NCBI GenBank assembly: GCA_004297725.1
Contig: SCUS01000071.1
Span: 62,001-126,000, forward strand
Source: Myxococcaceae bacterium
Lineage (GTDB): Bacteria; Myxococcota_A; Polyangia; Polyangiales; Ga0077539
Reading direction: 5' to 3'
DNA: 64,000 bases
Notes under the pieces: model-generated
Told to the model about the DNA's origin: nothing
Databases searched by the model: none
The model's input: the letters and a program-made list of their open reading frames with translations, nothing else
Translations under genes and position numbers: made by a program
In this document: piece by piece, positions 6,866 to 56,327 of the stretch
Numbering within the stretch: the first letter of the stretch is position 1
Layout: each line of letters opens with the position of its first letter

Positions 6866-7891
6866 GTGGAGCTGCTGATCACCGGAGCCACCGGTTTCCT
6901 CGGGCGGACGCTGACCGCCCGGCTGGTGCGAGAGGGCCATCGGGTGCGGGCGCTGGTGCGGTCGGAGTCCGACCCGGCGGCGAGGGAGCGGCTTCGGGCG
7001 CTGGGCGCCGTGGAGCGCGTTGGCACGGTGACCGACGAGGCCACCGTGCGCGCGGCGATGGCGGGCGTCGAGGCGGTGGTGCACTGCGCGCAGGTGGGGC
7101 CGCGGGCCTCCGACGAGCTCGCGGAGGCGGTCAACCTCGTCGGCGCGGAGAACGTGCTGCACGCGGCGCGGGCGCTGGGCGTCCGAAGGATGGTGTTCCG
7201 CTCGAGCGAGTCGGTCACCCGCGGGGGCGTCGCGCGCAGCTACGTCGACGAGGAGCATCCCTCGCCGCCGCGCTTCACCGACCGCTCGGCGGAGGCGCTC
7301 TCGCTCGCCGACGACCTCGTGGGGGCCGCGGGCAACGACGCCTTCTCGACGGTGGTGATCCGCCCGGGGATTCTCTGGGGCCCCGACGACACCCGGTGGC
7401 TGCCGGCGGTGCTGCGCCGCGTGCTCGCCGGGCGCTGGCGGTGGATCGACGGGGGGCGGTCGATGGTCCCGACGAGCCACGTCGACAGCGTGGTCGACGC
7501 GATGGTGCGCTCGCTGACGGTCGAGGTCGCGGCGGGGCGCACCTACTACGTGACCGACGACGAGCGGGTGACCGCGAGGGAGTTCGTGAGCCGCTCGGTG
7601 GCCGCCGCGGGCGCGGGGAAGTTCTCCGCGGGGAGCCTGCCTTACTGGGCGGCGTATGCGCTGGGCTGGTGGGCCGAGCGCGGGGACGACCCGCTGGCGT
7701 GCCACCGCGCGGAGGTCTCGACCCTCGGGCAGGTCGCGTATTTCAACGTCCAGCGAGCGCGCAAGGAGCTCGGCTGGGCGCCGGTGCTGAGCGTCGACGA
7801 GGGGATGCGCTCGCTCGCCGCGTGGGCTGCGAAGCGGGGCGGCGCGGAGGTCGTCGCGCGGGGCGAGGTCGACCCGGCGCTGCCGGGCTGA
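6866..7891 (+). CDS. NAD-dependent epimerase/dehydratase (extended SDR family)
   Basis: 341 residues from a GTG at 6866, chosen because it places the Rossmann motif TGATGFLG at residues 6-13, as is usual in this family. An ATG at 6800 would add an unrelated Arg/Gly stretch and overlap the start of the MscS gene. The region around residues 115-150 (VFRSSESVTRGG, then SYVDEEHPSP) replaces the usual YxxxK segment. I cannot place a clear catalytic Tyr-x(3)-Lys, so an atypical SDR is possible. The C-terminal half resembles NAD(P)-dependent steroid or sugar epimerase-like proteins. The substrate cannot be named. Confidence 0.85.
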   Translation: MELLITGATGFLGRTLTARLVREGHRVRALVRSESDPAARERLRALGAVERVGTVTDEATVRAAMAGVEAVVHCAQVGPRASDELAEAVNLVGAENVLHAARALGVRRMVFRSSESVTRGGVARSYVDEEHPSPPRFTDRSAEALSLADDLVGAAGNDAFSTVVIRPGILWGPDDTRWLPAVLRRVLAGRWRWIDGGRSMVPTSHVDSVVDAMVRSLTVEVAAGRTYYVTDDERVTAREFVSRSVAAAGAGKFSAGSLPYWAAYALGWWAERGDDPLACHRAEVSTLGQVAYFNVQRARKELGWAPVLSVDEGMRSLAAWAAKRGGAEVVARGEVDPALPG

Positions 7892-7914
7892 TCGTCGGGC
7901 CTCTCCGGGCGTCG

Positions 7915-7944
7915 GATCGCGGTCTCTGGGAGACCCTTGCGATC
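7915..7944. terminator. stem-loop between the epimerase gene and the SRP RNA
   Basis: GATCGC-GGTCTC, loop TGG, GAGACC, a three-base CTT bulge, then GCGATC form a 12-bp interrupted stem. It lies 23 bases after the stop of the plus-strand epimerase gene and just past the 3' end of the minus-strand SRP RNA, so it could stop both transcripts. There is no clear T run on either side, so intrinsic termination is only a guess. Confidence 0.4.
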
Positions 7945-7965
7945 AGACGATCGGAGGAGGGAGAG

Positions 7966-8051
7966 GGTGGCCCGGCTGCACCGCGATCTACGCTGCCGTT
8001 GCTTCGTTTCCGACCTGGCGGGGTTCACGAGCCAAGGTCAGCCGGGCCATA
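7966..8051 (-). ncRNA. ffs: signal recognition particle RNA (small bacterial 4.5S type)
   Basis: Read on the minus strand, the RNA begins TGGCCCGGCTG (8049 to 8039) and ends CAGCCGGGCCA (7978 to 7968), which pair as a perfect 11-bp closing stem. At its tip sits the conserved domain IV: CAGG, stem TCG, GAAA tetraloop, stem CGA, then AGCA. This is the Ffh-binding symmetric loop capped by a GNRA loop. The RNA is the scaffold of the signal recognition particle, which delivers inner membrane proteins to FtsY. At about 85-90 nucleotides it is slightly shorter than the E. coli 4.5S RNA (114). The exact ends are approximate, and no promoter could be fixed with confidence. Confidence 0.92.
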
Positions 8052-8189
8052 TGATCTTCAGGATCTCTCCCTCGGACGGCGCGGGGTGTACCCCAACCTC
8101 CCGGGGGAAGGCAACCCGAGAACGCGCGAATCATCCGCCGGGCCCTCGACTGGAGTCCGCGCGTCGATGGGGCTACAAGCCGCGCACCT

Positions 8190-9326
8190 ATGGCAGAGAT
8201 CGAGATCCGGGAGATTGCGGCGGGGAGTGATCCCCGCGAGTTCATCGACGCGTCGCACGCCGTGTTCGAGGGCGACCCGAACTTCATCGCGCCGCTGGAG
8301 ATGTTCGACATCAAGCCCCGGCTCGACCCGAAGAAGAACCCGTTCTTCAAGCGGGGCGAGGCGGTGTACTTCGTCGCTCGCCGCGGGGGGAAGCTGGTGG
8401 GCCGCATCTCGGCCTCCATCGACCACGAGCACAACCGGGTCTGGAGCGAGAAGAACGGCTTCTACGGCTTCTTCGACACCGTCGACGACGACGCGGTGGG
8501 GGCGGCGCTGCTCGAGCGCGCGGCCGCGTGGCTGAAGGCCAGGGGGATGACCCGGATGAGCGGCCCCTACGGGCTCTACGCCAACGAGGAGATCGGCACG
8601 CTGGTCGAGGGCTTCGACTCGCCGCCGGTGCTGATGATGGCGCACTCGCGCCCGTGGCAGGGCCGGGTCACCGAGGCCTGGGGGCTCACCAAGGAGAAGG
8701 ACCTCTTCGCGTGGCGCTACGAGGTCTCGGAGTTTCCGAAGCGGGTGGAGAAGGCCTGGGCGGACATGAAGGCCCTGCCGGAGCTCAAGCTGCGGTCGGT
8801 CAACACGTCGAAGATGCACGATGAATTGAAGATCATCATGGACATCTACAACGACGCCTGGGAGGGCAAGTGGGGCTTCGTGCCGGCGCTCCCCGACGAG
8901 ATCGAGAAGACCGCCGAGGACCTCAAGCTCATCATCGACCCCGACCTGGCGTTCATCGCCGAGATCGACGGCAAGCCGATGGGGATGTGCATCCTGCTGC
9001 CCAACATGAACGAGTGCATCCGGGACATCCGGGGCAAGGAGTTCCCCTTCGGCATCGTGAAGGCGCTCTGGCGCCTCAAGGTGTCCGGGCCGAAGTCCTC
9101 GCGGCTGATGCTGCTCGGCATCCGCAAGGAGCTCCGGGGAGTGCGCAAGTACATGCCGCTCTCCGCGGCGATGTACGTCGAGGTCGCGAAGCGCGGCTCG
9201 GCCAAGGGCTACACCTGGGGTGAGCTCTCGTGGACCCGCGAGGACGACTCGCCCATCAACAGCGGCATCGCCGCCATGGGCGCGAAGATCTACAAGCGCT
9301 ACCGGGTCTACACCAAGGACCTCTGA
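8190..9326 (+). CDS. GNAT-like N-acetyltransferase superfamily protein
   Basis: 378 residues, soluble, beginning MAEIEIREIAAGSDPREFID. The N-terminal third (PLEMFDIKPRLDPKKNPFFK, then GEAVYFVARRGGKLVGRISA) and the mid-region PDLAFIAEIDGKPMGMCILL look like two halves of a GNAT fold. The overall pattern resembles the conserved YghO-like family, for which no substrate is established. The ATG lies about 140 bases beyond the SRP RNA gene, which is on the other strand. Transcription probably starts in that gap, but I see no convincing promoter. The gene appears intact and monocistronic. Confidence 0.75.
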   Translation: MAEIEIREIAAGSDPREFIDASHAVFEGDPNFIAPLEMFDIKPRLDPKKNPFFKRGEAVYFVARRGGKLVGRISASIDHEHNRVWSEKNGFYGFFDTVDDDAVGAALLERAAAWLKARGMTRMSGPYGLYANEEIGTLVEGFDSPPVLMMAHSRPWQGRVTEAWGLTKEKDLFAWRYEVSEFPKRVEKAWADMKALPELKLRSVNTSKMHDELKIIMDIYNDAWEGKWGFVPALPDEIEKTAEDLKLIIDPDLAFIAEIDGKPMGMCILLPNMNECIRDIRGKEFPFGIVKALWRLKVSGPKSSRLMLLGIRKELRGVRKYMPLSAAMYVEVAKRGSAKGYTWGELSWTREDDSPINSGIAAMGAKIYKRYRVYTKDL

Positions 9327-9382
9327 CCCGCGCCGCGGGCTCGTTTGCAACTCCGCGCGGATCTCGGCCAGACTCCCGCGCC

Positions 9383-10342
9383 GTGCGCTCCCCCACCATC
9401 CTCCTCGCGCTCTCCCTCGCGGTCGTCGGCTGCGCGAGCACCGTCGACGGCACCGCCGCGCGCGGCGATGGGGGGCTCCCCTCCGATGTGCTGCCGGGGC
9501 TCAACCCCGACGGCCTCGATCCCTTCCGCCCCGTCGAGGCCGGGGTCATCACCGCCGACGCGGCCCGGGTCGACGCCGGCGAGCCCGGCTTCGCGGACGC
9601 CACGGTCTTCGACCAGCGCTACGGCACCCTCTACATCGGCAGCAACTCGTCGGGCGTCGAGGACACCACCTACGTCGGCGCGACCTTCCGCTACCTGCCC
9701 TACCCCGATGACCTCCGCTGCGGTCAGCGCTCGTCCGGGGCCTGGGACCTCTCGGTCTGCACCAGCGCCGGCGCCGCCCCGGTCGATCCGCACCCGCGAA
9801 CCTTCCCCCACGCCGGGGTGATCAGCCTCTCCGGCGGACTGCGCGCCGTCGCTCTCCGCCCGCAGTCGTCGGGCCAGTACAGCACCTACTTCAACCAGGG
9901 GACGGAGTTTCCCGGGCCTCGCATGGTGAGGGTCCAGGCCCCCGGGACGAGGGACATCCCCGCCTTCGACCTCGCGTTCTCCGTCCCTCCCACCGTCGTC
10001 GTGACCGCGCCCGGCAACGCCGAGGAGCTGGTCGTCGACCGGGGGCGAGACCTCGTCGTGGAGTGGATCCCCAACGCCGCGCGCGAGGTCTGGGTGGTGC
10101 TCTCGCTCGTCCACTCGGTCGACGGCGAGACGCGCAGCTACCGGGCCGCCGTGCAGACCTACGGCGACGTCGGCCGGGCGGTGCTCCCGGCGCGCGCCCT
10201 CGCCGAGCTCCCCGCCGGCACCGCCGGCCGGGTCGCGCTCACCATCCTCCCGTACAACGTCAGCACCGCGCGCATCGGGTCGTGGCCGCTCACCGCCACC
10301 GTCGTCGGTCAGGGCCGCCGCTACACCGTCACGCTCCGATGA
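9383..10342 (+). CDS. lipoprotein of unknown function
   Basis: 319 residues from a GTG at 9383, chosen because it gives a clean lipoprotein signal (VRSPTILLALSLAVVGCAST, lipobox AVVGC). Longer in-frame starts run back into the preceding gene. An Asp/Gly/Pro-rich linker follows, then a globular part with the segment TVVVTAPGNAEELVVDRGRD. This region could be an Ig-like beta-sandwich, but I cannot assign a family. The stop TGA (10340-10342) overlaps the ATG of the next gene at 10339, so the two are probably translated together. Confidence 0.72.
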   Translation: MRSPTILLALSLAVVGCASTVDGTAARGDGGLPSDVLPGLNPDGLDPFRPVEAGVITADAARVDAGEPGFADATVFDQRYGTLYIGSNSSGVEDTTYVGATFRYLPYPDDLRCGQRSSGAWDLSVCTSAGAAPVDPHPRTFPHAGVISLSGGLRAVALRPQSSGQYSTYFNQGTEFPGPRMVRVQAPGTRDIPAFDLAFSVPPTVVVTAPGNAEELVVDRGRDLVVEWIPNAAREVWVVLSLVHSVDGETRSYRAAVQTYGDVGRAVLPARALAELPAGTAGRVALTILPYNVSTARIGSWPLTATVVGQGRRYTVTLR

Positions 10343-11421
10343 GCGACCGCCGCCGCGCCCTCGCGTGCGCCTCCGCGCTCGCGCTCGCCCTGCCCGCCCG
10401 GGCCCAGCTCCGCCCCGCGCCGCACGCCCGCTGCGTCGTCACCGCCCACGTCGCGGTCGCCTCCGACGACCCCGGCGACCCGCTCGCCCCTCCGGCGCTG
10501 CTCACGCTCGACCGGCTCACCGTCGTGGCCTGGCGCGACCGCGCCGGCGCCCTCCTCGTCCAGCGCTTCGCCGCGGACCTGCGCGCCCTCGACCAGCCCC
10601 GGGTCGTCGCGCAGCCGGTGCGGATCTTTACCATGGCACGTACTCCGACGGGCTTCGCGCTGGCCTACGTCGAGCGCGAGCACGAGCTCGTCGTCGCGCG
10701 CCGCTCGGCCTCCATGGAGGCGCAGAACGTGCCGCGGGTCGTCGAGGCCATCCGCTCTCCCGTGACCTCGCTGTCGCTCGCCCCGGTCGCGGGCGGCTCG
10801 CTGCTCGCGTGGTCGACGCCGGAGGCGGTGCGGGTGATGGCCCTCGATGCGCGCGGGGTCCCTCGGGCTCCGTCGAGCGTGGCGCTCGATCAGCCCGGGG
10901 CCCGCTCGGTGGGCCTCGACGCGGCCGAGCGGGCGACCCTGCGCGTCGACGCGATCGACCCGTCGGTCGAGCCGTGGGTGCTCACGCTGCAGCCCGACGG
11001 CGCGGTCGCGAGCCGGGCGCGCTGGCCCATCGGCGCCCTCGGGCCGGTGCGCCTCGGGGGCGTCGTCTTCACGGCGCAGATCAACCCCGTCGGGAGCCCG
11101 ATGCTCCTGCGCAGCAACGTCGCGGCTCCCCCGGCGGCCATCGCCGACCCGGCGGTCGTGCCGCGGGCCCGCCTCGACGCCCTCGCGGTCGACGGTGAGC
11201 TGGCCGTCGCGATGGTGAGCGATCCGGTCGCGGGGCGGCAGTCCCTCGCGCGCCTGCTCCCCGACGGCAGCGCCTCGTGGCTCACCGGCGTCCGAGGCGC
11301 CCTCCCCGGACCGTCGTCGCTCGCCGTGCTGGCGCCGGGGACGGTGCTGCTGCTGACCCGGGACGCCGCGCACTCGCCGCCGCGCACGACGCTGCAGCGC
11401 TACGTCTGCACGCTGCCCTGA
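10339..11421 (+). CDS. secreted protein of unknown function, coupled to the upstream lipoprotein
   Basis: 360 residues starting MSDRRRALACASALALALPA with a signal peptide ending ARAQ. The ATG overlaps the preceding stop (ATGA). The mature protein alternates short beta-strand-like stretches (for example TSLSLAPVAGGSLLAWSTPE and VVPRARLDALAVDGELAVAM). This pattern is seen in beta-propeller proteins of myxobacteria, but there is no diagnostic motif. A single Cys pair is possible (ARCVV near the N-terminus, YVCTLP at the end). Co-transcription with the lipoprotein suggests a shared cell-surface role. No enzymatic function can be claimed. Confidence 0.72.
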   Translation: MSDRRRALACASALALALPARAQLRPAPHARCVVTAHVAVASDDPGDPLAPPALLTLDRLTVVAWRDRAGALLVQRFAADLRALDQPRVVAQPVRIFTMARTPTGFALAYVEREHELVVARRSASMEAQNVPRVVEAIRSPVTSLSLAPVAGGSLLAWSTPEAVRVMALDARGVPRAPSSVALDQPGARSVGLDAAERATLRVDAIDPSVEPWVLTLQPDGAVASRARWPIGALGPVRLGGVVFTAQINPVGSPMLLRSNVAAPPAAIADPAVVPRARLDALAVDGELAVAMVSDPVAGRQSLARLLPDGSASWLTGVRGALPGPSSLAVLAPGTVLLLTRDAAHSPPRTTLQRYVCTLP

Positions 11422-11431
11422 GGCGCGCCGG

Positions 11432-11995
11432 TCACCGCGGCCGGAACTCCAGCGAAGCCGAGTTGATGCAGTAGCGAAGCCCGGTGGGGGCGGGGCCGTC
11501 CTCGAAGACGTGACCGAGGTGCCCGTCGCAGCGCGCGCAGTGCACCTCGTCGCGCTCCATGCCCATCGAGGTGTCGACCGTCCGGGCGACGCGGCCCGGG
11601 GCGACGGGCTGCGTGAAGCTCGGCCACCCGGTGCCCGACTCGAACTTGTCCTCCGAGCGGAAGAGCGGCGCCCCGCACGCGGCGCAGCGGTAGACGCCGT
11701 CGGCGTGGTGGTCCCAGTAGCGCCCGGTGAACGCGCGCTCGGTGCCCTGCTCTCGCAGCACATGGAAGCGCTCGGGCGTCAGCCGCCGCCGCCACTCGTC
11801 GTTGGAGAGCACGAGGCGATCGCCGATCGGGGGGTCGGCGCCCGCGTCGCCGGAGCTCACCGCCGCCACGGCGGGCGCTCGCACGGACGCCTCGGGCGCT
11901 CGCGGCGATGCCCCCGGCCCCGTGGCCCCCGCGCGGCTGCACGCCGCCGTCGCCGCCACGCCCAGACACCCCTGCAGCCAGCTTCGTCGGTTCAT
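11432..11995 (-). CDS. msrB: peptide-methionine (R)-S-oxide reductase, exported form
   Basis: 187 residues from the ATG at 11995. MsrB reduces the R epimer of methionine sulfoxide in proteins. Diagnostic features are the zinc pairs CAAC and CARC, the [11 protein letters not shown] segment, and [11 protein letters not shown], whose Cys176 is the expected catalytic cysteine. The N-terminus, [20 protein letters not shown], looks like a twin-arginine signal with a lipobox-like TAAC, followed by an Ala/Pro linker. The enzyme is therefore probably a lipoprotein exported folded, to repair envelope proteins. The usual cytosolic MsrB lacks this about 60-residue extension. The gene is convergent with the preceding pair and lies 50 bases from the metallophosphoesterase stop. 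Confidence 0.92.
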
Positions 11996-14355: not shown

Positions 14356-14754
14356 ATGACCCCACTGGCCGAGCGCGTGATCATCGACCGACTGCGCGAG
14401 GGCGTGCCCGTCCGCTGGACCGTGCGGGGCAGCAGCATGTGGCCCTCGATCCGCGACGGGGCGACGGTGTCGGTCTCTCCCGGGGAGGTCCGCTCGATGC
14501 GCGCGGGGGAGCTCGTGGCCTTCACGCGCGGGGCGAGGGTGGTGGTGCATCGGGTGGTGGCGGTCGAGCCCGGGGGCCTGCGCTGCCGGGGCGACGCGCT
14601 CTCCCGGGAGGACGGCGTCGTGGCGTGGGCCGACGTGCTCGGCCGGGCGACGGTGCTCGAACAGCGGCCGCTCTCGCTGCGCTGGCCGAGGGCGCGCGAG
14701 CTCCGGGCCCTGCTCCGGGCGGCGCTGGGCGCGCTGCGCACGGTGCGCTCGTGA
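14356..14754 (+). CDS. S24/S26-like serine peptidase homolog at the head of a RiPP-like operon
   Basis: 132 residues, first gene of a tightly coupled set. The motif VRGSSMWPSIRDG contains the S26/S24 nucleophile pattern G-x-S-M-x-P-x-[IL], with Ser27 as candidate nucleophile. VVVHRVV places His65 where SipW/Sec11-type signal peptidases carry His in place of Lys. There is no convincing membrane anchor, unlike classical signal peptidases, so it may act in the cytosol. In this setting it could be the leader peptidase for the small peptide at 21823. Such short S24-like proteins are often seen beside PqqD and HPr-kinase-like genes. The stop overlaps the next start as GTGA at 14751. Confidence 0.78.
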   Translation: MTPLAERVIIDRLREGVPVRWTVRGSSMWPSIRDGATVSVSPGEVRSMRAGELVAFTRGARVVVHRVVAVEPGGLRCRGDALSREDGVVAWADVLGRATVLEQRPLSLRWPRARELRALLRAALGALRTVRS

Positions 14755-15590
14755 GGCTCGACATCGCGGGGCTGCGCGTGGCGGTCGAGGCCACCGGACC
14801 GATGAACCCCCGGCACGTCGACGTCCGCTTCGGGCGCTACGCCGCGCCGGACGACGGTCGCCCCGACGACCTGCGGCTCGAGCTCCGGGTCGACCCAGGG
14901 TGGGTCGCGCCTCACCCGGTTCGCAACCGCTTCCCCGGCGTGGACTTCGAGCGCGCCTCCGACGGCACCTTCCACTTCCTGCGCCCCGACGGCGAGACGA
15001 GGGTCGACCTCGCGCGCCACCGGGCGACGGCGGTCGTGCGCCCCACGCTCGTCACCGACGATCCGATGGAGGACATCACCCCCATCGACACGCCGCTGCG
15101 CCTTCAGCTCGCGAGCGAGCTCCCGGCGCACCAGGGAGCGATGGTCCACGCATGCGGCTACGCCGACGACCGCGGCGCCGTGCTCTTCATCGCCCGCTCC
15201 GAAGGGGGAAAGACCACCACCGCGCGCAAGCTCCCCGAGGCGAACGTGCTCTCCGACGACCTCGTGGCGGTGCGCCGCACGCCAGAGGGGTGGGACGCCT
15301 TCGCGCTGCCCTTCGTCGGCGAGTGGCAGCGACCGACGGTCCCTCGGCGCGGGCGCCTGCGGGCGCTGGTGTTCCTCCGCAAGTCCGACGAGCTCTCGAT
15401 CACCGACTGCCCCGCGGCGCTCGCCTTCCCCGACATGCTCCAGGCGATGGTGTGGTTCGCCAAGGGCGACCCCGCCGCCGCCGCGCTGCTCGACCACGCG
15501 CACGCGCTCATCCGCGCGGTCCCCTGCGTCACGCTCGCGATCCCCCGCGACCGTCCGGTGCTCCCGCTGCTCGACCGCTGGCTCGCGTGA
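14751..15590 (+). CDS. HPr kinase-related ATPase 1
   Basis: 279 residues from a GTG overlapping the previous stop. The C-terminal half has an HprK/PEPCK-like core: MVHACG near residue 131, the P-loop-like ARSEGGKTTT at 148-157 (Lys154), and LSDDLVAV at 167-174, whose Asp169-Asp170 match the acidic pair of HPr kinases. The first glycines of the P-loop are replaced (Ala148, Glu151). The N-terminal domain is unassigned. Related kinases accompany PqqD-type genes in the 'HPr-rel-A' cassettes, and an HprK-like enzyme phosphorylates the lasso peptide paeninodin. A role in peptide phosphorylation or carrier modification is therefore plausible but unproven. Confidence 0.8.
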   Translation: MRLDIAGLRVAVEATGPMNPRHVDVRFGRYAAPDDGRPDDLRLELRVDPGWVAPHPVRNRFPGVDFERASDGTFHFLRPDGETRVDLARHRATAVVRPTLVTDDPMEDITPIDTPLRLQLASELPAHQGAMVHACGYADDRGAVLFIARSEGGKTTTARKLPEANVLSDDLVAVRRTPEGWDAFALPFVGEWQRPTVPRRGRLRALVFLRKSDELSITDCPAALAFPDMLQAMVWFAKGDPAAAALLDHAHALIRAVPCVTLAIPRDRPVLPLLDRWLA

Positions 15591-16357
15591 GCGCCGTCGT
15601 CGGACTGCGCTTCGGCCCCGTCTCGCTGCGGGTCGAAGGGCCCGCGCTGCACCCGCTGCTCGACCCCTACCGCGCTCCCATCGAGGCCGACGCCCGGCGG
15701 GTGCGGGTCACCCTCGCCCACGAGCTCCCTCCGGGCTCCGCGCCCGCCACGGCCCAGGTGGGCTTCGCACTCGACGCCCACGCCGACCACGATCACCTCG
15801 CCCTGAGCGGCGACCCCTCGCGGCCCACCCCCTGGCTCGCGGCCTTCTGCGAGCTCGTGGCCAGGGACGCTCCCGCGCGCCGGGCGCTGCTGCTCCACGC
15901 CGGGGCGGTCACCGTTGACGAGGGCGTCGCGCTGCTGGTCGCTCCGCCCGGCGTCGGCAAGACCACCGCGGTGCGCAACGCCGGGGCGAGGGCCTTCGCC
16001 TCCAACGCCGTGCTCGTCGACCTGTCGGGTGAGCGCCCGACCGTGCTCGCGATGCCCTTCACCCGCGAGCCTGCGCCCGAGCTGGAGTCGCCACACAGGC
16101 TCCCCCTGGCGGCCCTGGCCTTCGTCCATCGCTCCCCCGAGGCCACCGTTGAATGGATCGCGGGCACGCTGGCAACCATTCGCCTGATGCCGCACGTGAC
16201 GCGTCCCCGGGGAGACGACCCCCACGCTCGGGCCCGCACCGACCTCGCCCTCTCCATGGGCGCCAGGGTGCGCGCTCTCACGCTGGGCTTGCCCTGGGGA
16301 CCGGGCTATCTTGCCGCCCTCGACGCCGCCCTCCAACCGACGACCTACCCGACATGA
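15587..16357 (+). CDS. HPr kinase-related ATPase 2, acidic pair missing
   Basis: 256 residues from a GTG overlapping the previous stop (GTGA at 15587). The P-loop APPGVGKTT (residues 119-127, Lys125) is canonical, and LLLHAGAVTV precedes it as in HprK-related proteins. The region aligned with LSDDLVAV of the first kinase reads FASNAVLVDL, so the Asp-Asp pair thought to bind metal and act in catalysis is absent. This copy may bind ATP without phosphoryl transfer, or pair with the first kinase. The two proteins share layout but are divergent. The stop overlaps the pqqD-like start as ATGA. Confidence 0.76.
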   Translation: MSAVVGLRFGPVSLRVEGPALHPLLDPYRAPIEADARRVRVTLAHELPPGSAPATAQVGFALDAHADHDHLALSGDPSRPTPWLAAFCELVARDAPARRALLLHAGAVTVDEGVALLVAPPGVGKTTAVRNAGARAFASNAVLVDLSGERPTVLAMPFTREPAPELESPHRLPLAALAFVHRSPEATVEWIAGTLATIRLMPHVTRPRGDDPHARARTDLALSMGARVRALTLGLPWGPGYLAALDAALQPTTYPT

Positions 16358-16635
16358 ACGCCCAACGAACCGTCCACCACGCCAGCGACGCGGTCTGGCG
16401 GCGCTACGACGACCAGGTCGCCGTGATCTCCCTCGACGCCAACCGGGTGCGCCTCTTCAACGCCGTCGGGAGCTTCCTCTGGGAGCGCTGCGACGGCTCG
16501 ACGGTCGACCAGATGGTGGCCGCCGTGTGCGAGCGCTTCGCCGTCGACGAGCCCACCGCCCGCGCCGACGTCGAGCGCTTCATCGACGACCTCGCCTCCC
16601 GCGGGCTGCTGCGTCCCGCGGCCGAGGCGCCATGA
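16354..16635 (+). CDS. PqqD-like peptide-binding protein (RiPP recognition element)
   Basis: 93 residues: MNAQRTVHHASDAVWRRYDD then QVAVISLDANRVRLFNAVGS. It has the winged-helix PqqD pattern of short beta strands, LFNAVGSFLWERCDG and the closing helices VAAVCERFAVDE and VERFIDDLASRGLL. PqqD-like proteins bind the leader of a precursor peptide and present it to a modifying enzyme. Its position between the kinase pair and the radical SAM gene, with four-base ATGA overlaps on both sides, strongly supports that role here. The family is normally about 90 residues, so it is a stand-alone chaperone rather than a fusion. Confidence 0.85.
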   Translation: MNAQRTVHHASDAVWRRYDDQVAVISLDANRVRLFNAVGSFLWERCDGSTVDQMVAAVCERFAVDEPTARADVERFIDDLASRGLLRPAAEAP

Positions 16636-17921
16636 ACGGCGCGCAGCTCCTCCGCTCGCTCGCGCTGCGAAACGGCCGCCCGATGGGGGTGCACCTCCAG
16701 GTGGCCGACCGCTGCAACCACGCCTGCCACCACTGCTATCAACTGCAGGGGCAGAAGGGCGAGCTGAGCTTCGACGAGCTGCGGTCCATCATCGACGGCA
16801 TCGCCGACGCCGGGGTGTTCACGCTCAACGTGAGCGGCGGCGAGGCCACGCTGCGCCCCGACCTCTTCGACATCCTGCGCTACGCCCGGGGCAAGGGCTT
16901 CGCGCTGCGCCTCTTCACCAACGGCTTCCTCATCGACGAGGCCTACGCCGACGAGCTCGCGCGCATCGGGCTGCTCGAGGTCCACGTGAGCCTCTACTCG
17001 GGCGCCGCCGAGGAGCACGACGCGGTGACCCGGGTGCCCCGCTCCTTCGAGCGCACCGTCGGCGCCGTCGCCGCGCTCCGCGCTCGGGGCGTGCGCGTCG
17101 TGCTGAAGACGCCCGCGACGACGCTCTCCCCGCTGGGGGCGCGCAGCGTCGAGGCGCTGGCGCGGAGCCTCGGGTGCGAGCACCAGACGTCCACCGACCT
17201 CACCATGCGCGAAGACGGCGCGGCCGACCCGTGGGCCGTGCGCGTCACCCCCGAGGCGCTGCTTCGCCAGGGGATGCTCACCCCGTGGCAGCCCTCCGAA
17301 GACGAGGCCCGCGCCCGCGCCTCGAAGCTCGCGGCCTTCCCCTGCGGCGTCGGTCGCTCGGGGCTCGTGGTGCTGCCCGACGGGCGCCTGCAGGCCTGCT
17401 CCGACACGCCCAACATCCTGGCCGACCTCACGCAGGCGCCGCTGGCCGAGGCGCTGCAGACGGCGCCCGAGCGCGAGCTCTTCGAGGGGCTCACCTGGGG
17501 GAGGGTGCACGGGTGCCGCGACTGCGACCTGCTCGCGGCCTGCCAGCGCTGCCACGCGACGGCGCTGCACGAGGGCGGCGACTACCTGGGCCCCTACCCC
17601 TCGGCCTGCGCCAGGGCTCGGGCGCGCTACGCCGCGGCGGCTGGATCGCTGGAGGTGACCGCGCCGTCGGAGGACTGCGAGCCCGGGCGCGACCCGGCGG
17701 TGGGCCCGTACGCCATCGTGGCGCTCGGGGTGATCCGGCCGTCACGGCACGTGCGCACCGCCGAAGACGAGGCGCTGGCGGCGAGGTTCGGGTGGCTTCG
17801 AGGAGAGGGAGCGAAGCCTGCCGAGTCGGGGCTGGTCACCATCCGGCGCAAACCATCCACGGCGTCTTTACAGTCGTCAGCTGTGGAACCATGCAGCGTG
17901 CCGCAGGTCGGACGGGTGTGA
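16632..17921 (+). CDS. radical SAM/SPASM peptide-modifying enzyme
   Basis: 429 residues. Residues 28-35 (CNHACHHC) give the CX3CX2C site that binds the SAM-cleaving 4Fe-4S cluster; VSGGEATLRPD follows as the usual GGE motif. The C-terminal SPASM region has seven cysteines: C and DGRLQAC (the G-x4-C part), then CRDCDLLAACQRC, then a last Cys in YPSACARA. This would hold two auxiliary clusters. The CX2CX5CX2C spacing differs slightly from the usual CX2CX5CX3C. Enzymes of this class install thioether, C-C or other crosslinks in ribosomal peptides bound by a PqqD protein. The substrate may be the peptide encoded at 21823. The last 30 residues look poorly conserved. Confidence 0.87.
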   Translation: MNGAQLLRSLALRNGRPMGVHLQVADRCNHACHHCYQLQGQKGELSFDELRSIIDGIADAGVFTLNVSGGEATLRPDLFDILRYARGKGFALRLFTNGFLIDEAYADELARIGLLEVHVSLYSGAAEEHDAVTRVPRSFERTVGAVAALRARGVRVVLKTPATTLSPLGARSVEALARSLGCEHQTSTDLTMREDGAADPWAVRVTPEALLRQGMLTPWQPSEDEARARASKLAAFPCGVGRSGLVVLPDGRLQACSDTPNILADLTQAPLAEALQTAPERELFEGLTWGRVHGCRDCDLLAACQRCHATALHEGGDYLGPYPSACARARARYAAAAGSLEVTAPSEDCEPGRDPAVGPYAIVALGVIRPSRHVRTAEDEALAARFGWLRGEGAKPAESGLVTIRRKPSTASLQSSAVEPCSVPQVGRV

Positions 17922-17984
17922 TAAACCCGCTCTCTCTCCTGAACTCACCTAAGTATCTGAACACACCGAATCCGGGGACTCACC

Positions 17985-20900
17985 ATGGCGCATCGCATCC
18001 GACTGGGACTTTTGCTTCCGTTCATCGCCTCCGCAGCCGTCGGCTGCTCGGACGATCCGGTCCCGCCTCCGGTCGACGCGGGCGCTGACGTCTCGGACAC
18101 GGGCGCGGACGTCGGCACGGACGTCGGCACGGATGCGGGCTCGGACGGCGGCATGTGCCCGTCGGTGGAGTTCATCCGACCGACGTCCTCGGCCGTCCTC
18201 GGCGTGGCCGACGACATGGACAACAACTGCAGCAACGGCTTCGCGTACGGGGTGCAGATCGCCACCAACGCGCCGATCGGCTCGCGCCTCGAGCTCCTCG
18301 TCAACGGCCGCAGCGTGGGCAACACCACCGTGAGCGGCCCGACGGTGCGCTTCGAGGGCGTGCAGTTCGACACCGGCGCCATGTCGACGCTCGAGATCCG
18401 CCGCTCCGGCTCGACCGTCGCGTGCGGCACGGCGACCATCTCCGTCGACTGCAACGTCCCTCGCTGCACCATCACCACCCCGGCGCGCAGCGCGCTCAAC
18501 CTCACCGACAGCACCGCGGGCGCGGGGATGCCCTTCGCCACCAGCTTCGTCGTCGGCACCGACATCGAAGACGGCCGCGAGGTCGAGCTCTCCATCACGG
18601 GCACCGCGACGCCGCTGCGCGCGGCCGTGATGTCCGGCATGGCGCGCTTCAACAACGTCCGCCTCAGCCCCGACGGCGAGTTCGTCACCCGCGCCACGTG
18701 CACCAACCGCGCGGGCAACATCGGCCGCTCGGCGGAGAGCCGCTTCACCGTCGACTCGGTGGCGCCGACCCTCACGGTGCAGAGCCCGATGGCCAACGCC
18801 GTGATCGGCCTCTCGGGCGACGTCAACGCGGCGGTCCCCGGGGTGCAGTTCAACGTGTGCGCCCGCAGCGACGCCGCGGGCCGGCGGGTGTGCGCCAACG
18901 TGATGGGCTCCACCCCGGCCGACCCGGCCGGCTGCGCGGACGTGCCCGCCTCCGCGACCACCGACGCCTGCGTGCAGGTGACCTGCCCCGACGGCAGCGC
19001 GCCCTTCAACGTCGAGGTCTCGACGCAGGACGCGGCGGGCAACGTCGCCCGCGGCTCCATCGCCGGCGTGCGCTGCCAGTCGGCGCTCCCCTCGGTGCGC
19101 GTCGTCTCGCCGGCGGCGTACAGCGCCACCGACGCCACGACGATCCTCAACGCGGCGCGCGACACCAACCCGGCCCTCGGCGGGATGCAGGTCGACGTCG
19201 TGGCCTGCACCGACCGCCCCTCGGGCACCGCGGTGCTCACGGCCAGCACGGTCTCGACGCAACTCGGCATGGCGACCGTGGCTCCCACCGCGGCGGGCGA
19301 CCCCTGCGCCGCGCTGGCCATGGGCTTCGTCGGCATCGCACGGTTCCCCGGCGTCACGCTGCCGGAGTCCTTCCCGGCGCGCACCTCGCCGACCTCGCCG
19401 GCCCCCACGGGCCCGTCGCTCCAGGTGGCGGTCACCGACGGCTCGGGCGACCGCGGATCCTCCGCCCCGACGCTGGTCTACGTCGACTCGTCGGCCCCGA
19501 CGCTCAGCATCTTCAACTGCAACCGCATCGTGCGGCCGGGCGCCGATGGCACCGCGCGCACCGACGTGACGGTGAACAGCGACGCCTACCCGGTGACGCT
19601 CACGGTCACGCGCACCGGCGACATGCCGCGCACCTTCGAGCTCGCCGCCCCGTCGATGGTCGGCGGCACCAGCACCTTCGCGAACCTCCAGTTCTTCGCG
19701 GGCTCCACGACGCTCCGGCTCGCGGCGACGGACCCGGCGGGCAACAGCAGCGCGACCAACGGGATGTGCACCATCGAGGTGGGCAACCCCCCGACGCTGG
19801 CGTTCACGAGCCCGACGCCGGGCGCGATCTTCACCACCCGCACCACCAACATCACGCTCAGCACCGACGCGCCCGCGGGCACCGTGGTCAGCCTCCGCAT
19901 CAACGGCGGCACGGCCATCACGGCCCCGGTCGCCGGGGGGATGGTCACCTTCCCGGGCGTGACGCTCCCCGACGGCGACGCGGTCAGCCTGCAGGCCGCG
20001 ACGGCCGATGTCTCGGGACGCGGCGTCGGGATGGCCTCGGTCACCGTGGTCGTCGACACGGGCATCCCCACGGCGCCCGCCGCCTTCGCGGCGACGATCC
20101 CCGCGACGCCCCGCTCGGCGCGTCGCGCGGGCACCCTGCGGCTCAGCTGGACCGACGGCTCCGACCCCAGCCCCTCGGGCACGGGCACCCGCCCGGTCAA
20201 CCGCTACGAGCTGCGCTACTCGACGGTGCCCTTCACCCTGACGAACTTCCCGGGCGGCACCCCGGCGGTGTTCACCGCCACGCCGGGCACCCCGGGCGCG
20301 GCCAACACCGCGGACATCACCGGCCTGCAGCTCGGGCGCACGTACTACCTGGCGATGCGCTCCTTCGACGTGTCGGGCAACGCGAGCCCGACGATCGCCA
20401 CGGCCGGCCCGGTGACCCCGGACGTCGTCGTCGACGAGATCTCGAACCCGGTGCCTCCGCTGGGCAACAACGTCTCCGGTGGCCAGGACTTCAACAACGA
20501 CGGCTTCGCTGACCTCATCGTGGGCTCCGGCACCTCGATGACCACCACCGGCGGCTACGCGCGCATCTACTTCGGCTCGGCGACGGGCCTCTCGGCGACC
20601 AACTTCACGGAGTTCCGCGGGGGCGCCTCGGACGGGCGCTTCGGCTTCGTCGTGGCGGCGCTCGGCGACATCAACGGCGACGGCATCTCCGACCTCGCCA
20701 TCTCCGAGCCCGGTCCGACGACGGCGGGCGCGACGCGTCCGGGCATCGTGTACCTCTACTTCGGCCGCGAGTCGGCGATGTGGCGCCGCGGGGCGGAGAT
20801 CTACCTCCCCATCGAGGCGAACGTCATCATCGGCAACGGCACCGCGGAGTTCGCGACGGCGCGCCTCGGCGTCTCCCTCGCGCGCATCGGCGACTTCGAC

Positions 20901-21788
20901 GGCGACGGCCTCAACGACGTCGTGGCGGGCGCTCCCAACGCGACCGACGGCGGCGCGGTGGTGATCTTCCGCGGGCGTCGCACCTGGCCCGCGACGCTCA
21001 CCCCCAACGGCGCGGACCTCGTCATCCGCAACGGCGCCGCGACGACCTTCTTCGGCTTCACCCTCGCGGGCATCGGCCGGGTGATGGGCGGCGACATGCT
21101 GGAAGACCTCGCCATCGGCGGCGGCCCCAACAACCAGGGGACGGTCTTCGTCTTCGCCGGTCGCTCGCTGGCGACCCCGGCCTCGCTGCGCGGGGCGGAC
21201 GCGAACTTCACCCGGGTGGGCGTGCTCGCGGGCAGCGCCGGGAGCGCCGCGGGCTCGACCGCCGCGTCCGGGCAGTGCCAGGTCGGCGGCGTCGGTGACA
21301 TCAACGGCGACGGCCGGAGCGACCTCGCCATCGGGACGCTCGGCAGCGCCCCCATCGGGAGCACGGGCCTGGGCGGCGAGGTGTTCCTGTACTTCGGCTC
21401 GGCCGCTGGCGGCCTGACCCTCGGCGGGAGCGTGCGCACGGCCTCGACCTCCGGTCCCAACGACCTCTTCGGCCGCTCGATCGCGTCGATCTACAGCCCG
21501 ACGCAGGTGCGCCCCTCGCTGCTCCAGTCGGCGGCCTCCTCGGCCGACCTGCTGATCGGCGCCCAGGGCTACCAGTCCAGCAACCCGCCGCGCCTCTCCA
21601 TCTTCCGCGGCCGCGGGTCGTGGACCGGGGTCACCGCGGCCGAGCCCGATCGCTTCGTCGCCACCGTGGGTAGCGGCACCTCCCTGTCGATCACCAGCAC
21701 CAACTGGATCGGCGACGTCGACGGCGACGGCGCCGTGGACGCGGCCTTCGTGCAGTCCGGAACCGGAACGCTGTTCATCGTGCGGTGA
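17985..21788 (+). CDS. large FG-GAP/VCBS repeat lipoprotein with Ig-like domains
   Basis: 1267 residues. MAHRIRLGLLLPFIASAAVG before Cys21 is a lipoprotein signal, followed by an Asp/Gly/Val linker. The central part is a series of Ig-like or bacterial adhesin-like modules (for example CTITTPARSALNLTDSTAG and PTLAFTSPTPGAIFT), and then a fibronectin type III module near residues 685-810. From about residue 830 to the end are FG-GAP (integrin alpha-like) repeats with calcium-binding loops DFNNDGFADL, DINGDGISDL, DFDGDGLNDV, DINGDGRSDL and DVDGDGAVDA. It is presumably on the outer surface. It follows the radical SAM gene by 63 bases and precedes the peptide gene by 34, which is unusual if the operon makes a RiPP. 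Confidence 0.88.
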   Translation: MAHRIRLGLLLPFIASAAVGCSDDPVPPPVDAGADVSDTGADVGTDVGTDAGSDGGMCPSVEFIRPTSSAVLGVADDMDNNCSNGFAYGVQIATNAPIGSRLELLVNGRSVGNTTVSGPTVRFEGVQFDTGAMSTLEIRRSGSTVACGTATISVDCNVPRCTITTPARSALNLTDSTAGAGMPFATSFVVGTDIEDGREVELSITGTATPLRAAVMSGMARFNNVRLSPDGEFVTRATCTNRAGNIGRSAESRFTVDSVAPTLTVQSPMANAVIGLSGDVNAAVPGVQFNVCARSDAAGRRVCANVMGSTPADPAGCADVPASATTDACVQVTCPDGSAPFNVEVSTQDAAGNVARGSIAGVRCQSALPSVRVVSPAAYSATDATTILNAARDTNPALGGMQVDVVACTDRPSGTAVLTASTVSTQLGMATVAPTAAGDPCAALAMGFVGIARFPGVTLPESFPARTSPTSPAPTGPSLQVAVTDGSGDRGSSAPTLVYVDSSAPTLSIFNCNRIVRPGADGTARTDVTVNSDAYPVTLTVTRTGDMPRTFELAAPSMVGGTSTFANLQFFAGSTTLRLAATDPAGNSSATNGMCTIEVGNPPTLAFTSPTPGAIFTTRTTNITLSTDAPAGTVVSLRINGGTAITAPVAGGMVTFPGVTLPDGDAVSLQAATADVSGRGVGMASVTVVVDTGIPTAPAAFAATIPATPRSARRAGTLRLSWTDGSDPSPSGTGTRPVNRYELRYSTVPFTLTNFPGGTPAVFTATPGTPGAANTADITGLQLGRTYYLAMRSFDVSGNASPTIATAGPVTPDVVVDEISNPVPPLGNNVSGGQDFNNDGFADLIVGSGTSMTTTGGYARIYFGSATGLSATNFTEFRGGASDGRFGFVVAALGDINGDGISDLAISEPGPTTAGATRPGIVYLYFGRESAMWRRGAEIYLPIEANVIIGNGTAEFATARLGVSLARIGDFDGDGLNDVVAGAPNATDGGAVVIFRGRRTWPATLTPNGADLVIRNGAATTFFGFTLAGIGRVMGGDMLEDLAIGGGPNNQGTVFVFAGRSLATPASLRGADANFTRVGVLAGSAGSAAGSTAASGQCQVGGVGDINGDGRSDLAIGTLGSAPIGSTGLGGEVFLYFGSAAGGLTLGGSVRTASTSGPNDLFGRSIASIYSPTQVRPSLLQSAASSADLLIGAQGYQSSNPPRLSIFRGRGSWTGVTAAEPDRFVATVGSGTSLSITSTNWIGDVDGDGAVDAAFVQSGTGTLFIVR

Positions 21789-21805
21789 GCGGCTGATACA
21801 ACGCT

Positions 21806-21815
21806 GAAGAGGAGT
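21806..21815 (+). promoter_or_regulatory. strong ribosome binding site for the 55-residue peptide gene
   Basis: GAAGAGGAG ends about nine bases before the ATG at 21823. It is one of the clearest Shine-Dalgarno sequences in the window and argues that the short downstream frame is translated. Confidence 0.7.
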
Positions 21816-21822
21816 CTCCCTT

Positions 21823-21990
21823 ATGCCCCCCGAGAACATGAACCCGAACGCCCCGGCGCCGCTCCTCCCCTACGAGGCGCCGCGCGTCGTCGAAGACCTC
21901 CCGCTCGAGACGTACAGCCTCGCCTGCGATCCCGGCGCGGGCGGCAAGAACCCCGGCGTCTGCGACGAGTTCGGCTTCGCCAACACCTGA
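21823..21990 (+). CDS. candidate RiPP precursor peptide, 55 residues
   Basis: Short frame with a strong ribosome binding site (GAAGAGGAG) placed 34 bases after the FG-GAP gene. The first half is Pro/Asn-rich (MPPENMNPNAPAPLLP) and continues YEAPRVVEDLPLETYSLA. Tyr17-x-x-Pro20-x-Val22 matches the YxxPx[LVI] motif that PqqD/B1-type proteins bind in lasso and other RiPP leaders. The C-terminal part has Cys35 and Cys47 in a Gly/Asp/Asn-rich stretch, CDPGAGGKNPGVCDEFGFAN, a plausible core for a crosslink spanning 11 residues. No signal peptide or membrane segment is present. No known family is recognised. The alternative is a small regulatory protein. Expression and modification are inferred from context only. 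Confidence 0.66.
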   Translation: MPPENMNPNAPAPLLPYEAPRVVEDLPLETYSLACDPGAGGKNPGVCDEFGFANT

Positions 21991-22011: not shown

Positions 22012-22869
22012 TCAGCGCAGCACGCGGTCGAGCGCACGCAAGGCCGCGTACCTGATCGCCCACCCGGGCAATCCTCCCCACCGATCGCTCAACACCGGCC
22101 GCTCCAGCAGCACCCCCGAGCGGCGACCCATCGGTCGTCGCCTTCGGAGGCTCTCGCCGGCCTCGATCCAGCGCCCGATGATCCGTCGACGAGCCCGCAT
22201 CCAGGGGTCGGACTCCCATGGGGTCGCCGGCACGTTCACGCCCCGAGCGCGGAGGTGTTCGAGGAGGAGCTGAAGCGCCAGGCGCATGCCCCCGCGGTCG
22301 GCCTCGCGGAAGACCAGCGACCAGTCGAGCGCCTCCCGGCCGAGCAGGCGGATCACGTCGCCCGCGTGGCGCTCGTCGATCTCGTAGAGGTGGTTGGCGT
22401 AGTGGAGCGCGGCGTAGAGGAGCTGGTCCTCGGCGCCGAGCGAGCGGATGGTCTCAGCGCCTGCGCGCCAGTCCCGGGCGCGGGAGAAGACCGCCGAGGC
22501 GTCCAGGTCGAACCACGGCCGCTCGGCGAGCTCGCGGTGCAGGTCGACGGGCATCCACGCGCCGGGGTGCCCGTAGGTCCACTCCTTGGAGCCCCACTCG
22601 ATGGTGGCGCGATACCTCGGGGGCTCGTAGCGACGAAAGCCCCGCTGCTCCAGGGCCGCCGCGAAGGCCTCGAAGCGCCCGGGGCTCACCAGCACGTCGA
22701 GGTCGCTGCCGGTGCGCTCTCCCCGCGCTCCGTAGAGCACCGGGTCGGCCCACGCGGCCTTGAGGAAGAGCAGGTCCGCGCCGACCTCGCGGGCGACCTC
22801 TCTCAGGAGCTCCCGCTGTCGATGGAAGAGCAGCGACTGCACCCACCCTGCGCTCGGTCCGGTCGCCAT
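22012..22869 (-). CDS. nucleotidyltransferase family protein (PF14907-like)
   Basis: 285 residues from the ATG at 22869. GSDLDVLVSPGRFEAFAAAL contains the G-S-D-x-D-hydrophobic signature of the Pol-beta-type nucleotidyltransferase fold, and VDLHRELAERPWFDLD matches the uncharacterised NTP_transf_5 family. Such proteins are recurrent neighbours of PqqD/HPr-kinase-like RiPP cassettes and of some lasso peptide clusters, where their reaction is unknown. It is convergent with the candidate precursor gene (22 bases between the stops) and lies 36 bases after the 61-residue small gene, with which it probably forms a two-gene transcript. Confidence 0.82.
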   Translation of the reverse strand: MATGPSAGWVQSLLFHRQRELLREVAREVGADLLFLKAAWADPVLYGARGERTGSDLDVLVSPGRFEAFAAALEQRGFRRYEPPRYRATIEWGSKEWTYGHPGAWMPVDLHRELAERPWFDLDASAVFSRARDWRAGAETIRSLGAEDQLLYAALHYANHLYEIDERHAGDVIRLLGREALDWSLVFREADRGGMRLALQLLLEHLRARGVNVPATPWESDPWMRARRRIIGRWIEAGESLRRRRPMGRRSGVLLERPVLSDRWGGLPGWAIRYAALRALDRVLR

Positions 22870-25719: not shown

Positions 25720-26466
25720 ATGGCTATGGGAATGTGGGACGAGCTCATGCGCCAGCCGGGGTTCTCGCCCCTGCAGGCGGTGTTCGGGGCGGTGATGTAC
25801 CTCGCGTGGACGGCGGCCTACGCGACCGTCATCCACCGGGGATTCAAGGACCGCACGTACGGCGTCCCGTGGCCCTGCATCGTGCTCAACGTGGCCTGGG
25901 AGGCGATCTTCTCCTTCGAGCTCACGGACGCGAGGCTCCATTGGTTCTTCCTCTATGGAAACCGGTTCTGGCTCGTCTTCGACGTCTTCATCCTCTATCA
26001 GCTCGCGCGCTTCGGGCGCGAGGCGCAGGTGGTGCCGTGGCTGAAGCGCTGGTTCTACCCCCTGTTCGCGCTCTCCGCGGTCGCGGCCTTCGGGGCGATC
26101 TACACCTTCACGCTCTACTTCCATGACCTGAAGGGCGTGGCCTCGTCCATGTCCATGAACCTCGTGATGAGCATCGCGTTTCCGGTCTTCCACCTGTCGC
26201 GGCCGGGGCGCGAGGGCCTCTCCACCAGGGCCGCCTGGCTCAAGATGGTCGGCACCCTCGCGGGCTCGGTCTTCCTGGCGACCTGGTGGCCCGCGCAGTT
26301 CGTCGACGGCCACCTGCGCACCCACCCGAGCGTCGACGAGCCGACCACCTACGGCTTCATGTACTTCCTCTACGGGGCGATCTTCGTCTTCGACTGCATC
26401 TACATCGGGCTCTGCCTGCGCGACGACCGCGAGCGCGCGTTGACCGTCAACCCTCGGGCCTCATAG
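25720..26466 (+). CDS. transmembrane terpene cyclase-like (Pyr4-family) integral membrane protein
   Basis: 248 residues with about seven membrane segments. VPWPCIVLNVAWEAIFSFEL contains the N-x(3)-WE pattern typical of the fungal Pyr4/PaxB-type membrane terpene cyclases, and the length (about 240) and the spacing of helices agree. Bacterial homologs exist whose substrates are unknown. No isoprenoid gene is nearby, so a cyclase activity is only a fold-level suggestion. The ATG at 25720 is preceded by GGGCGAGAGGAT-like sequence. The start lies 54 bases from the divergent VOC gene. Another ATG at 25726 is possible. Confidence 0.6.
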   Translation: MAMGMWDELMRQPGFSPLQAVFGAVMYLAWTAAYATVIHRGFKDRTYGVPWPCIVLNVAWEAIFSFELTDARLHWFFLYGNRFWLVFDVFILYQLARFGREAQVVPWLKRWFYPLFALSAVAAFGAIYTFTLYFHDLKGVASSMSMNLVMSIAFPVFHLSRPGREGLSTRAAWLKMVGTLAGSVFLATWWPAQFVDGHLRTHPSVDEPTTYGFMYFLYGAIFVFDCIYIGLCLRDDRERALTVNPRAS

Positions 26467-50608: not shown

Positions 50609-50749
50609 ATGTCGGCAGAGCGAAAGAGCCTGGAATTCAAGCCCGATTCCGAGGAAGTGGCGACCGGCATGGGGATTGAAGTGCGCTCCCTGGCGAGCGG
50701 CGAGGCGGACCGTCTGACGCGCCCGCCGTCGCAGGAGGCCAATCGATGA
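50609..50749 (+). CDS. 46-residue frame coupled to the KaiC-like gene
   Basis: ATG at 50609 to TGA at 50747-50749, overlapping the KaiC-like ATG as ATGA. The product (MSAERKSLEFKPDSEEVATG, ending TRPPSQEANR) has no recognised family. The only Shine-Dalgarno-like sequence, GGGGGAGG, is directly against the ATG with no spacing, which is poor. The KaiC-like gene has its own CAGGAGG at 50731-50737. The frame may be a translated leader or just chance. Confidence 0.35.
   Translation: MSAERKSLEFKPDSEEVATGMGIEVRSLASGEADRLTRPPSQEANR

Positions 50750-53918: not shown

Positions 53919-56327
<2,409 letters not shown>

Follow-up and report, generated by a model that had tools for sequence, protein, structure and literature searches.

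A conserved Myxococcota peptide encoded with PqqD, HprK-like and radical SAM genes: a probable new RiPP family

Gene content of the locus

The window examined here, a 64,000-nucleotide stretch of contig SCUS01000071.1 from a Myxococcaceae bacterium (assembly GCA_004297725.1), contains the following genes.

14356..14754, + strand: S26-like protease (SipW/archaeal-type, 132 aa); PF00717, E 1.8e-5; TIGR02228, 1.8e-7; Ser/His dyad
14751..15590, + strand: K1, HprK/PEPCK-fold P-loop kinase, assigned by motif and fold
15587..16357, + strand: K2, second HprK-like protein; Walker A; TIGR04352, 3e-4
16354..16635, + strand: PqqD/RRE protein; PF05402, 4.6e-19
16632..17921, + strand: radical SAM/SPASM maturase; PF04055, 6.5e-21; CNHACHHC; seven SPASM cysteines
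17985..21788, + strand: surface lipoprotein, 1267 aa; lipobox, Ig-like and FG-GAP beta-propeller repeats
21823..21990, + strand: precursor peptide, 55 aa; leader YEAPRVVEDLPLET, predicted core YSLACDPGAGGKNPGVCDEFGFANT
22012..22869, - strand: NTP_transf_5 nucleotidyltransferase; PF14907, 6e-24; convergent with the peptide gene

It was noted that the first five genes are joined by four-base stop/start overlaps (GTGA at 14751-14754 and 15587-15590, ATGA at 16354-16357 and 16632-16635), each exactly where an earlier sequence-only reading of this DNA had placed it, and that GAGGAG stands upstream of the peptide ORF, in agreement with the ribosome binding site proposed there. The list of five operon genes and a short peptide given by that reading was correct, although the FG-GAP lipoprotein was left out of its title, and its interval encloses the enzymes and the peptide but ends just before the NTP_transf_5 gene. 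The lipoprotein and the NTP_transf_5 gene are both parts of the peptide system.

Conservation of the peptide with the operon

The peptide has no family in Pfam, NCBIfam or PHROGs, and the window's own genome carries a single copy with no second. Four genus mates carry it at 81-85% identity, and homologs can still be recognised across other genera of its family. A profile built from the genus and family sequences matched 39 of the 184 genomes of the order, while a broader profile matched 51 of 379 genomes in a sample of the phylum, the weakest of these matches being doubtful. In total, 59 clear homologs were recovered by profile search from 59 Myxococcota genomes. System genes adjoin the peptide in all 59 of these loci, which meets the RiPP criterion of a leader conserved with its modifying enzymes; the few loci showing only one or two system genes lie at contig ends. 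Across classes, the synteny of the peptide loci revealed that the order of the system genes is reshuffled while the set is retained: the order S24/S26 protease, K1, PqqD, radical SAM, FG-GAP lipoprotein, peptide found here becomes PqqD, FG-GAP lipoprotein, peptide, K1, radical SAM, protease in L139-L142. Because the order varies and the set is constant, this points to function and not to inherited order.

The converse was also assessed. The radical SAM gene has orthologs in 27 of the order's genomes, 23 of which yielded the peptide by profile search. Among the other four, three contigs end before the peptide would be reached, and one (L153) is an intact locus where the absence is real and was counted against the RiPP reading. 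Sister genera from the same family that have no radical SAM gene (G007, G008, G010, G012) gave no peptide match when the order was searched with the profile. The sequence-only reading had called for this co-occurrence analysis in Polyangiales, and had held that homologous operons without a short peptide, or a frame that is not conserved, would refute it; with 59 of 59 peptides beside system genes and 23 of 27 in the converse direction, the reading survived. Its proposal that the PqqD/radical SAM operon acts on the short peptide as its substrate is supported by this conserved co-occurrence and is still an inference.

Among the genus mates, the leader has hardly changed in amino-acid sequence. 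The dN/dS across all 55 codons ranged from 0.3 to 0.96 between distinct genus sequences, only moderately below 1, and this too was weighed against the RiPP reading.

Two unusual loci were recorded. The L153 operon (7283-11763, in a complete genome) comprises a fused kinase-PqqD ORF, a radical SAM gene, a protease and an NTP transferase with no recognisable peptide, and it may use another substrate. The Eisenbacteria locus L041 encodes a peptide with one cysteine and the motif only in part; only 1 of 47 genomes in the phylum carries the radical SAM operon, so L041 is likely a case of transfer or mis-binning.

Anatomy of the peptide

Across the 59 homologs, and with the leader tyrosine numbered 0, the peptides follow the pattern Tyr(0)xxPro(3)x[VIF](5)...[FL]E[TAR](11-13)...Cys(18)...Cys...Ser/Thr-COOH. 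The YxxPxV motif (as YxxPx[VIF]) and the two cysteines pointed out from the single sequence recur, and the spacing is rigid. The first cysteine lies exactly at +18 from the tyrosine in nearly all loci, the second follows 6-14 residues later, and the peptide ends at about position 37, while the sequence between the cysteines differs freely between homologs. Of the 59 peptides, 52 finish with Ser or Thr (45 Ser, 7 Thr), compared to 14 of 203 neighbouring proteins (~7%); a formal p-value for this contrast would be meaningless owing to relatedness. In the window's own genus the last residue is Thr. The seven peptides without a Ser/Thr end were counted against the RiPP reading.

A strict signature gave one match in each of 57 related loci (30,463 ORFs) and none in 20 shuffled sets, with the reservation that the pattern was derived from these same peptides. 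Four of the loci with weaker peptide matches (L060-L063) fall outside the system and contain no match to the signature.

Enzymes of the operon

The PqqD protein scored 68.9 bits against PF05402, meeting the curated cut-off of 23.4, and its best solved relative is the lasso RRE TbiB1 (7e-15). That it binds the YxxPxV leader is strongly inferred, without binding data. The closest solved relatives of the radical SAM protein are the sactipeptide enzyme SkfB (2.6e-27) and PqqE (2.1e-22). Pfam places its SPASM domain below cut-off, the NCBIfam maturase models all score it below theirs, and all seven SPASM cysteines are invariant in the window's lineage. The radical SAM proteins of L055, L095 and L106, from the group without FG-GAP proteins, lack the CxxCxxxxxCxxC part of SPASM.

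Neither K1 nor K2 reaches the cut-off of any Pfam family, and K2 matches TIGR04352 (HprK_rel_A) at no better than 3e-4. The HprK-like assignment rests on motif and fold. By alignment, K1 retains all four residues of the His-Lys-Asp-Asp catalytic set described in the lasso kinase PadeK (PMC9266682). Its predicted structure (mean pLDDT 69, with the kinase half better) matched HprK/P 3tqf (Z 10.3, rmsd 3.1, 122 aligned) and PEPCK, of the same fold class as HprK (Z 12.2), in a fold search. K1 is therefore proposed as a putative peptide kinase, with a phosphorylation site that is inferred and not shown. K2 retains the Walker A motif with Asp-Asp replaced by Ser-Asn, and without this pair it is probably no kinase. 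The two HPr-kinase-like ATPases named in the sequence-only reading are therefore probably one kinase (K1) and one degenerate paralog (K2). Several K1 relatives lack the first Asp of the pair, a further point against the RiPP reading, and this loss correlates only partially with the non-Ser C-termini of the peptides.

The protease matches the archaeal signal peptidase I model TIGR02228 better than PF00717, with the TIGR02228 match below the model's cut-off. Its catalytic Ser (GSSM) and His (VVHRVV) form the dyad seen in signal peptidases of the archaeal and SipW types, which is conserved in most homologous loci, and no obvious membrane anchor was seen. On this resemblance, we propose that it may serve as the leader peptidase. 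In the proteases of L054-L056, L095, L100-L102 and L041, a GxCM motif was observed in which the catalytic Ser is replaced by Cys; judged from the motif, these SipW-like proteases may have exchanged a Ser nucleophile for Cys.

Surface proteins and nucleotidyltransferases at the peptide loci

An FG-GAP lipoprotein accompanies 36 of the 59 peptides, and a lipobox is visible in most of the N-termini read. In some loci without FG-GAP, a C25 peptidase or a lipoprotein of Kelch or EGF type stands beside the peptide. It was noted that a C25 (gingipain-like) peptidase borders the peptide cluster, with no FG-GAP protein present, in L105 (6580-10521), L151 (4437-7568) and L096 (3935-7348). In the f5/g9 group (L054-L056, L100-L102) no large surface protein was found, and the group retains the kinase, PqqD, radical SAM, peptide and NTP transferase genes. 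The position of the NTP_transf_5 gene is conserved in the family, and roughly one in three of all loci has the gene. The scanned neighbours in the window and the related loci gave no match to a transporter family (not every neighbour was scanned), so export is unexplained, and this was likewise held against the RiPP reading.

Comparison with known systems

The nearest described relatives are the linear polyphosphorylated peptides (LPP) of Bacillota, reported in Nat Commun in 2026, in which a SipW-like protease, assisted by an RRE, cuts a YxxPxV leader after F-E-T, and an HprK-like kinase phosphorylates core Ser3 (PMC13381572). Both systems have an archaeal-type signal peptidase as leader protease (here by a best match to TIGR02228 that is sub-cut-off), a discrete PqqD/RRE protein, an HprK-like kinase, an NTP transferase (here in about one-third of loci), and a YxxPxV leader ending in F-E-T, and both lack a macrolactam cyclase. 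However, the LPP precursor motif YxxPxVLxHQxIxFETxxS is not met, as the myxobacterial peptide has neither the HQ nor Ser3, and its F-E-T lies two residues closer to the tyrosine. The radical SAM/SPASM enzyme has no LPP counterpart, a two-cysteine core with a C-terminal Ser/Thr stands where LPP has Ser3, a large surface lipoprotein is present, the MsbA-like ABC transporter of the LPP cluster was not found among the scanned neighbours, and the hosts are Myxococcota and not Bacillota. With the full precursor motif absent and no such transporter among the scanned neighbours, the system is not an LPP.

With the lasso peptides of the paeninodin/pseudomycoidin type, the system shares an HprK-like kinase with the H-K-D-D set and a conserved C-terminal Ser (PMC9266682), as well as an NTP_transf-type protein, a discrete RRE and a [YW]xxP leader. 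It differs from them in having a radical SAM enzyme and an S26-like protease and no matched B2 protease or cyclase. Neither the window genes nor the scanned neighbours gave a match to an asparagine-synthetase-like lasso cyclase or a B2 cysteine protease, and neither enzyme belongs to the core common to the loci, in keeping with the different chemistry that had been anticipated from the sequence. Sactipeptides and other SPASM-radical SAM RiPPs (SkfB, PqqE) have the same maturase class and a Cys-containing core, but here PqqD is separate as the RRE, a kinase and a SipW-like protease are present, and a Cys-to-alpha-carbon thioether has not been shown. The HPr-rel-A system (TIGR04352/TIGR04353) also pairs an HprK-related protein with a PqqD relative, although both scores are below cut-off (K2 19.9 bits against 200; PqqD 15.4 against 35).

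Assignment to the lasso or mycofactocin class was dismissed, with no cyclase matched among the scanned genes and no model above cut-off. No description of RiPPs combining radical SAM with HprK and PqqD, or with FG-GAP proteins, was found in the literature searched, which did not cover subscription papers. The sequence-only reading called the locus probably undescribed, and this stands for the combination with a radical SAM enzyme, whereas the core without it is known as LPP (PMC13381572). By its features, the system appears to be neither an LPP nor a lasso peptide, and is predicted to be a new RiPP family on a known plan.

Proposed pathway and alternative readings

The conservation of the peptide with the same enzyme set indicates that it is very probably one of a new peptide family whose members are chemically modified. 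We estimate at roughly 85% the probability that the operon directs the biosynthesis of an undescribed Myxococcota RiPP family, LPP-like with an additional radical SAM enzyme. The gene set, the conservation and rigid architecture of the peptide, the catalytic motifs and the kinase fold are direct results of the analysis, while the product, cross-link and phosphorylation site are inferred; there are no expression, mass or product data, and modification of the peptide has not been shown.

In the proposed pathway, PqqD would bind the 55-aa precursor through its YxxPx[VIF] leader, a step that is strongly inferred. By inference from homologous enzymes, the two-Cys core would then be modified by the radical SAM/SPASM enzyme, most likely with a Cys-dependent cross-link; K1 would phosphorylate the C-terminal Ser/Thr, and where NTP_transf_5 is present a sugar or nucleotide may be added to the C-terminal phosphate; and the SipW-like protease would cut past [FL]-E-[T/A/R], freeing a core of ~25 residues. 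Gene order alone prompts the guess that the product acts extracellularly, together with the surface lipoprotein encoded beside it. Given the same enzymes and a matching leader as in LPP, leader binding by PqqD and cleavage at [FL]E[TAR] are the best-supported steps. A cut within a lipobox-like (S/L)LAC sequence, between A and C, was also considered for the leader and was dropped in favour of the FET site in view of the LPP cleavage (PMC13381572). LPP has nothing equivalent to the radical SAM enzyme. By inference, this enzyme most likely acts on the two fixed cysteines. C-terminal phosphorylation is proposed since the core has no Ser3 and the conserved hydroxyl is C-terminal, as in paeninodin and pseudomycoidin, whose kinases act there; in pseudomycoidin, a nucleotidyltransferase then adds hexoses to phospho-Ser (PMC9266682). 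Caution is warranted here, as this putative step is weakened by the Thr end in the window's own genus, the LPP kinase having rejected a Ser3-to-Thr change at its site (PMC13381572).

The single peptide copy in the window's genome, with almost every other genome also giving a single match, together with a core length conserved across classes and a radical SAM protein resembling PqqE and the mycofactocin maturase, could instead suggest a peptide-derived cofactor of the PQQ or mycofactocin kind, not a secreted peptide, in which PqqD and the radical SAM enzyme would remodel the precursor and the protease would free a small redox or prosthetic group for a partner protein. We judge this improbable: the core between the cysteines is free in sequence and in length (6 to 14 residues) whereas cofactor precursors fix their reacting residues, no dehydrogenase partner was seen, and the C-terminal Ser/Thr and the kinase would be left without a role. 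We give hardly any credence to the notion that the radical SAM/kinase module acts on the large surface lipoprotein (FG-GAP, Kelch or C25 peptidase), with the peptide as an accessory guide or inhibitor. In most loci a large secreted protein does adjoin the peptide (an FG-GAP protein in 36 of 59, elsewhere a Kelch or EGF protein or a C25 peptidase), yet the f5/g9 loci keep the kinase, PqqD, radical SAM, peptide and NTP transferase without one, the fold of the partner varies while the peptide architecture is constant, and the peptide carries a YxxP leader of the type bound by PqqD proteins.

Within the preferred RiPP reading, the association with surface proteins raises the question of what links a peptide pathway to giant beta-propeller lipoproteins of the cell surface. 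One tentative and rather doubtful answer is that the mature, radical SAM-modified and phosphorylated peptide is an encoded ligand or prosthetic tag for the giant surface protein (FG-GAP/Kelch beta-propeller or C25 peptidase). If true, a post-translationally made peptide would equip a cell-surface lipoprotein, and we know of no example of RiPP chemistry doing so. The system would join the kinase/NTP-transferase tailoring and SipW-like leader protease of LPP and lasso pathways with radical SAM/SPASM core chemistry. It also provides a testable precursor rule (a Tyr-xx-Pro leader, a cut after FET, Cys at +18 and a C-terminal Ser/Thr), with 59 precursors available for heterologous expression.

Other genes near the peptide loci

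In four loci of different families, a protein of ~440 aa with two cyclic-nucleotide-binding domains is encoded directly upstream of the kinase gene (L057 16503-17798, L094 794-2125, L097 2300-3625 and L111 1127-2509); it is possibly a regulator. Elsewhere in the window, a Ser/Thr protein kinase fused to RCC1 repeats was noted at 53919-56327, with a KaiC-like gene nearby at 50746-52260. A Pyr4-like transmembrane terpene cyclase domain (PF25129, 3e-15), from a family described chiefly in fungi, was found at 25720-26466.
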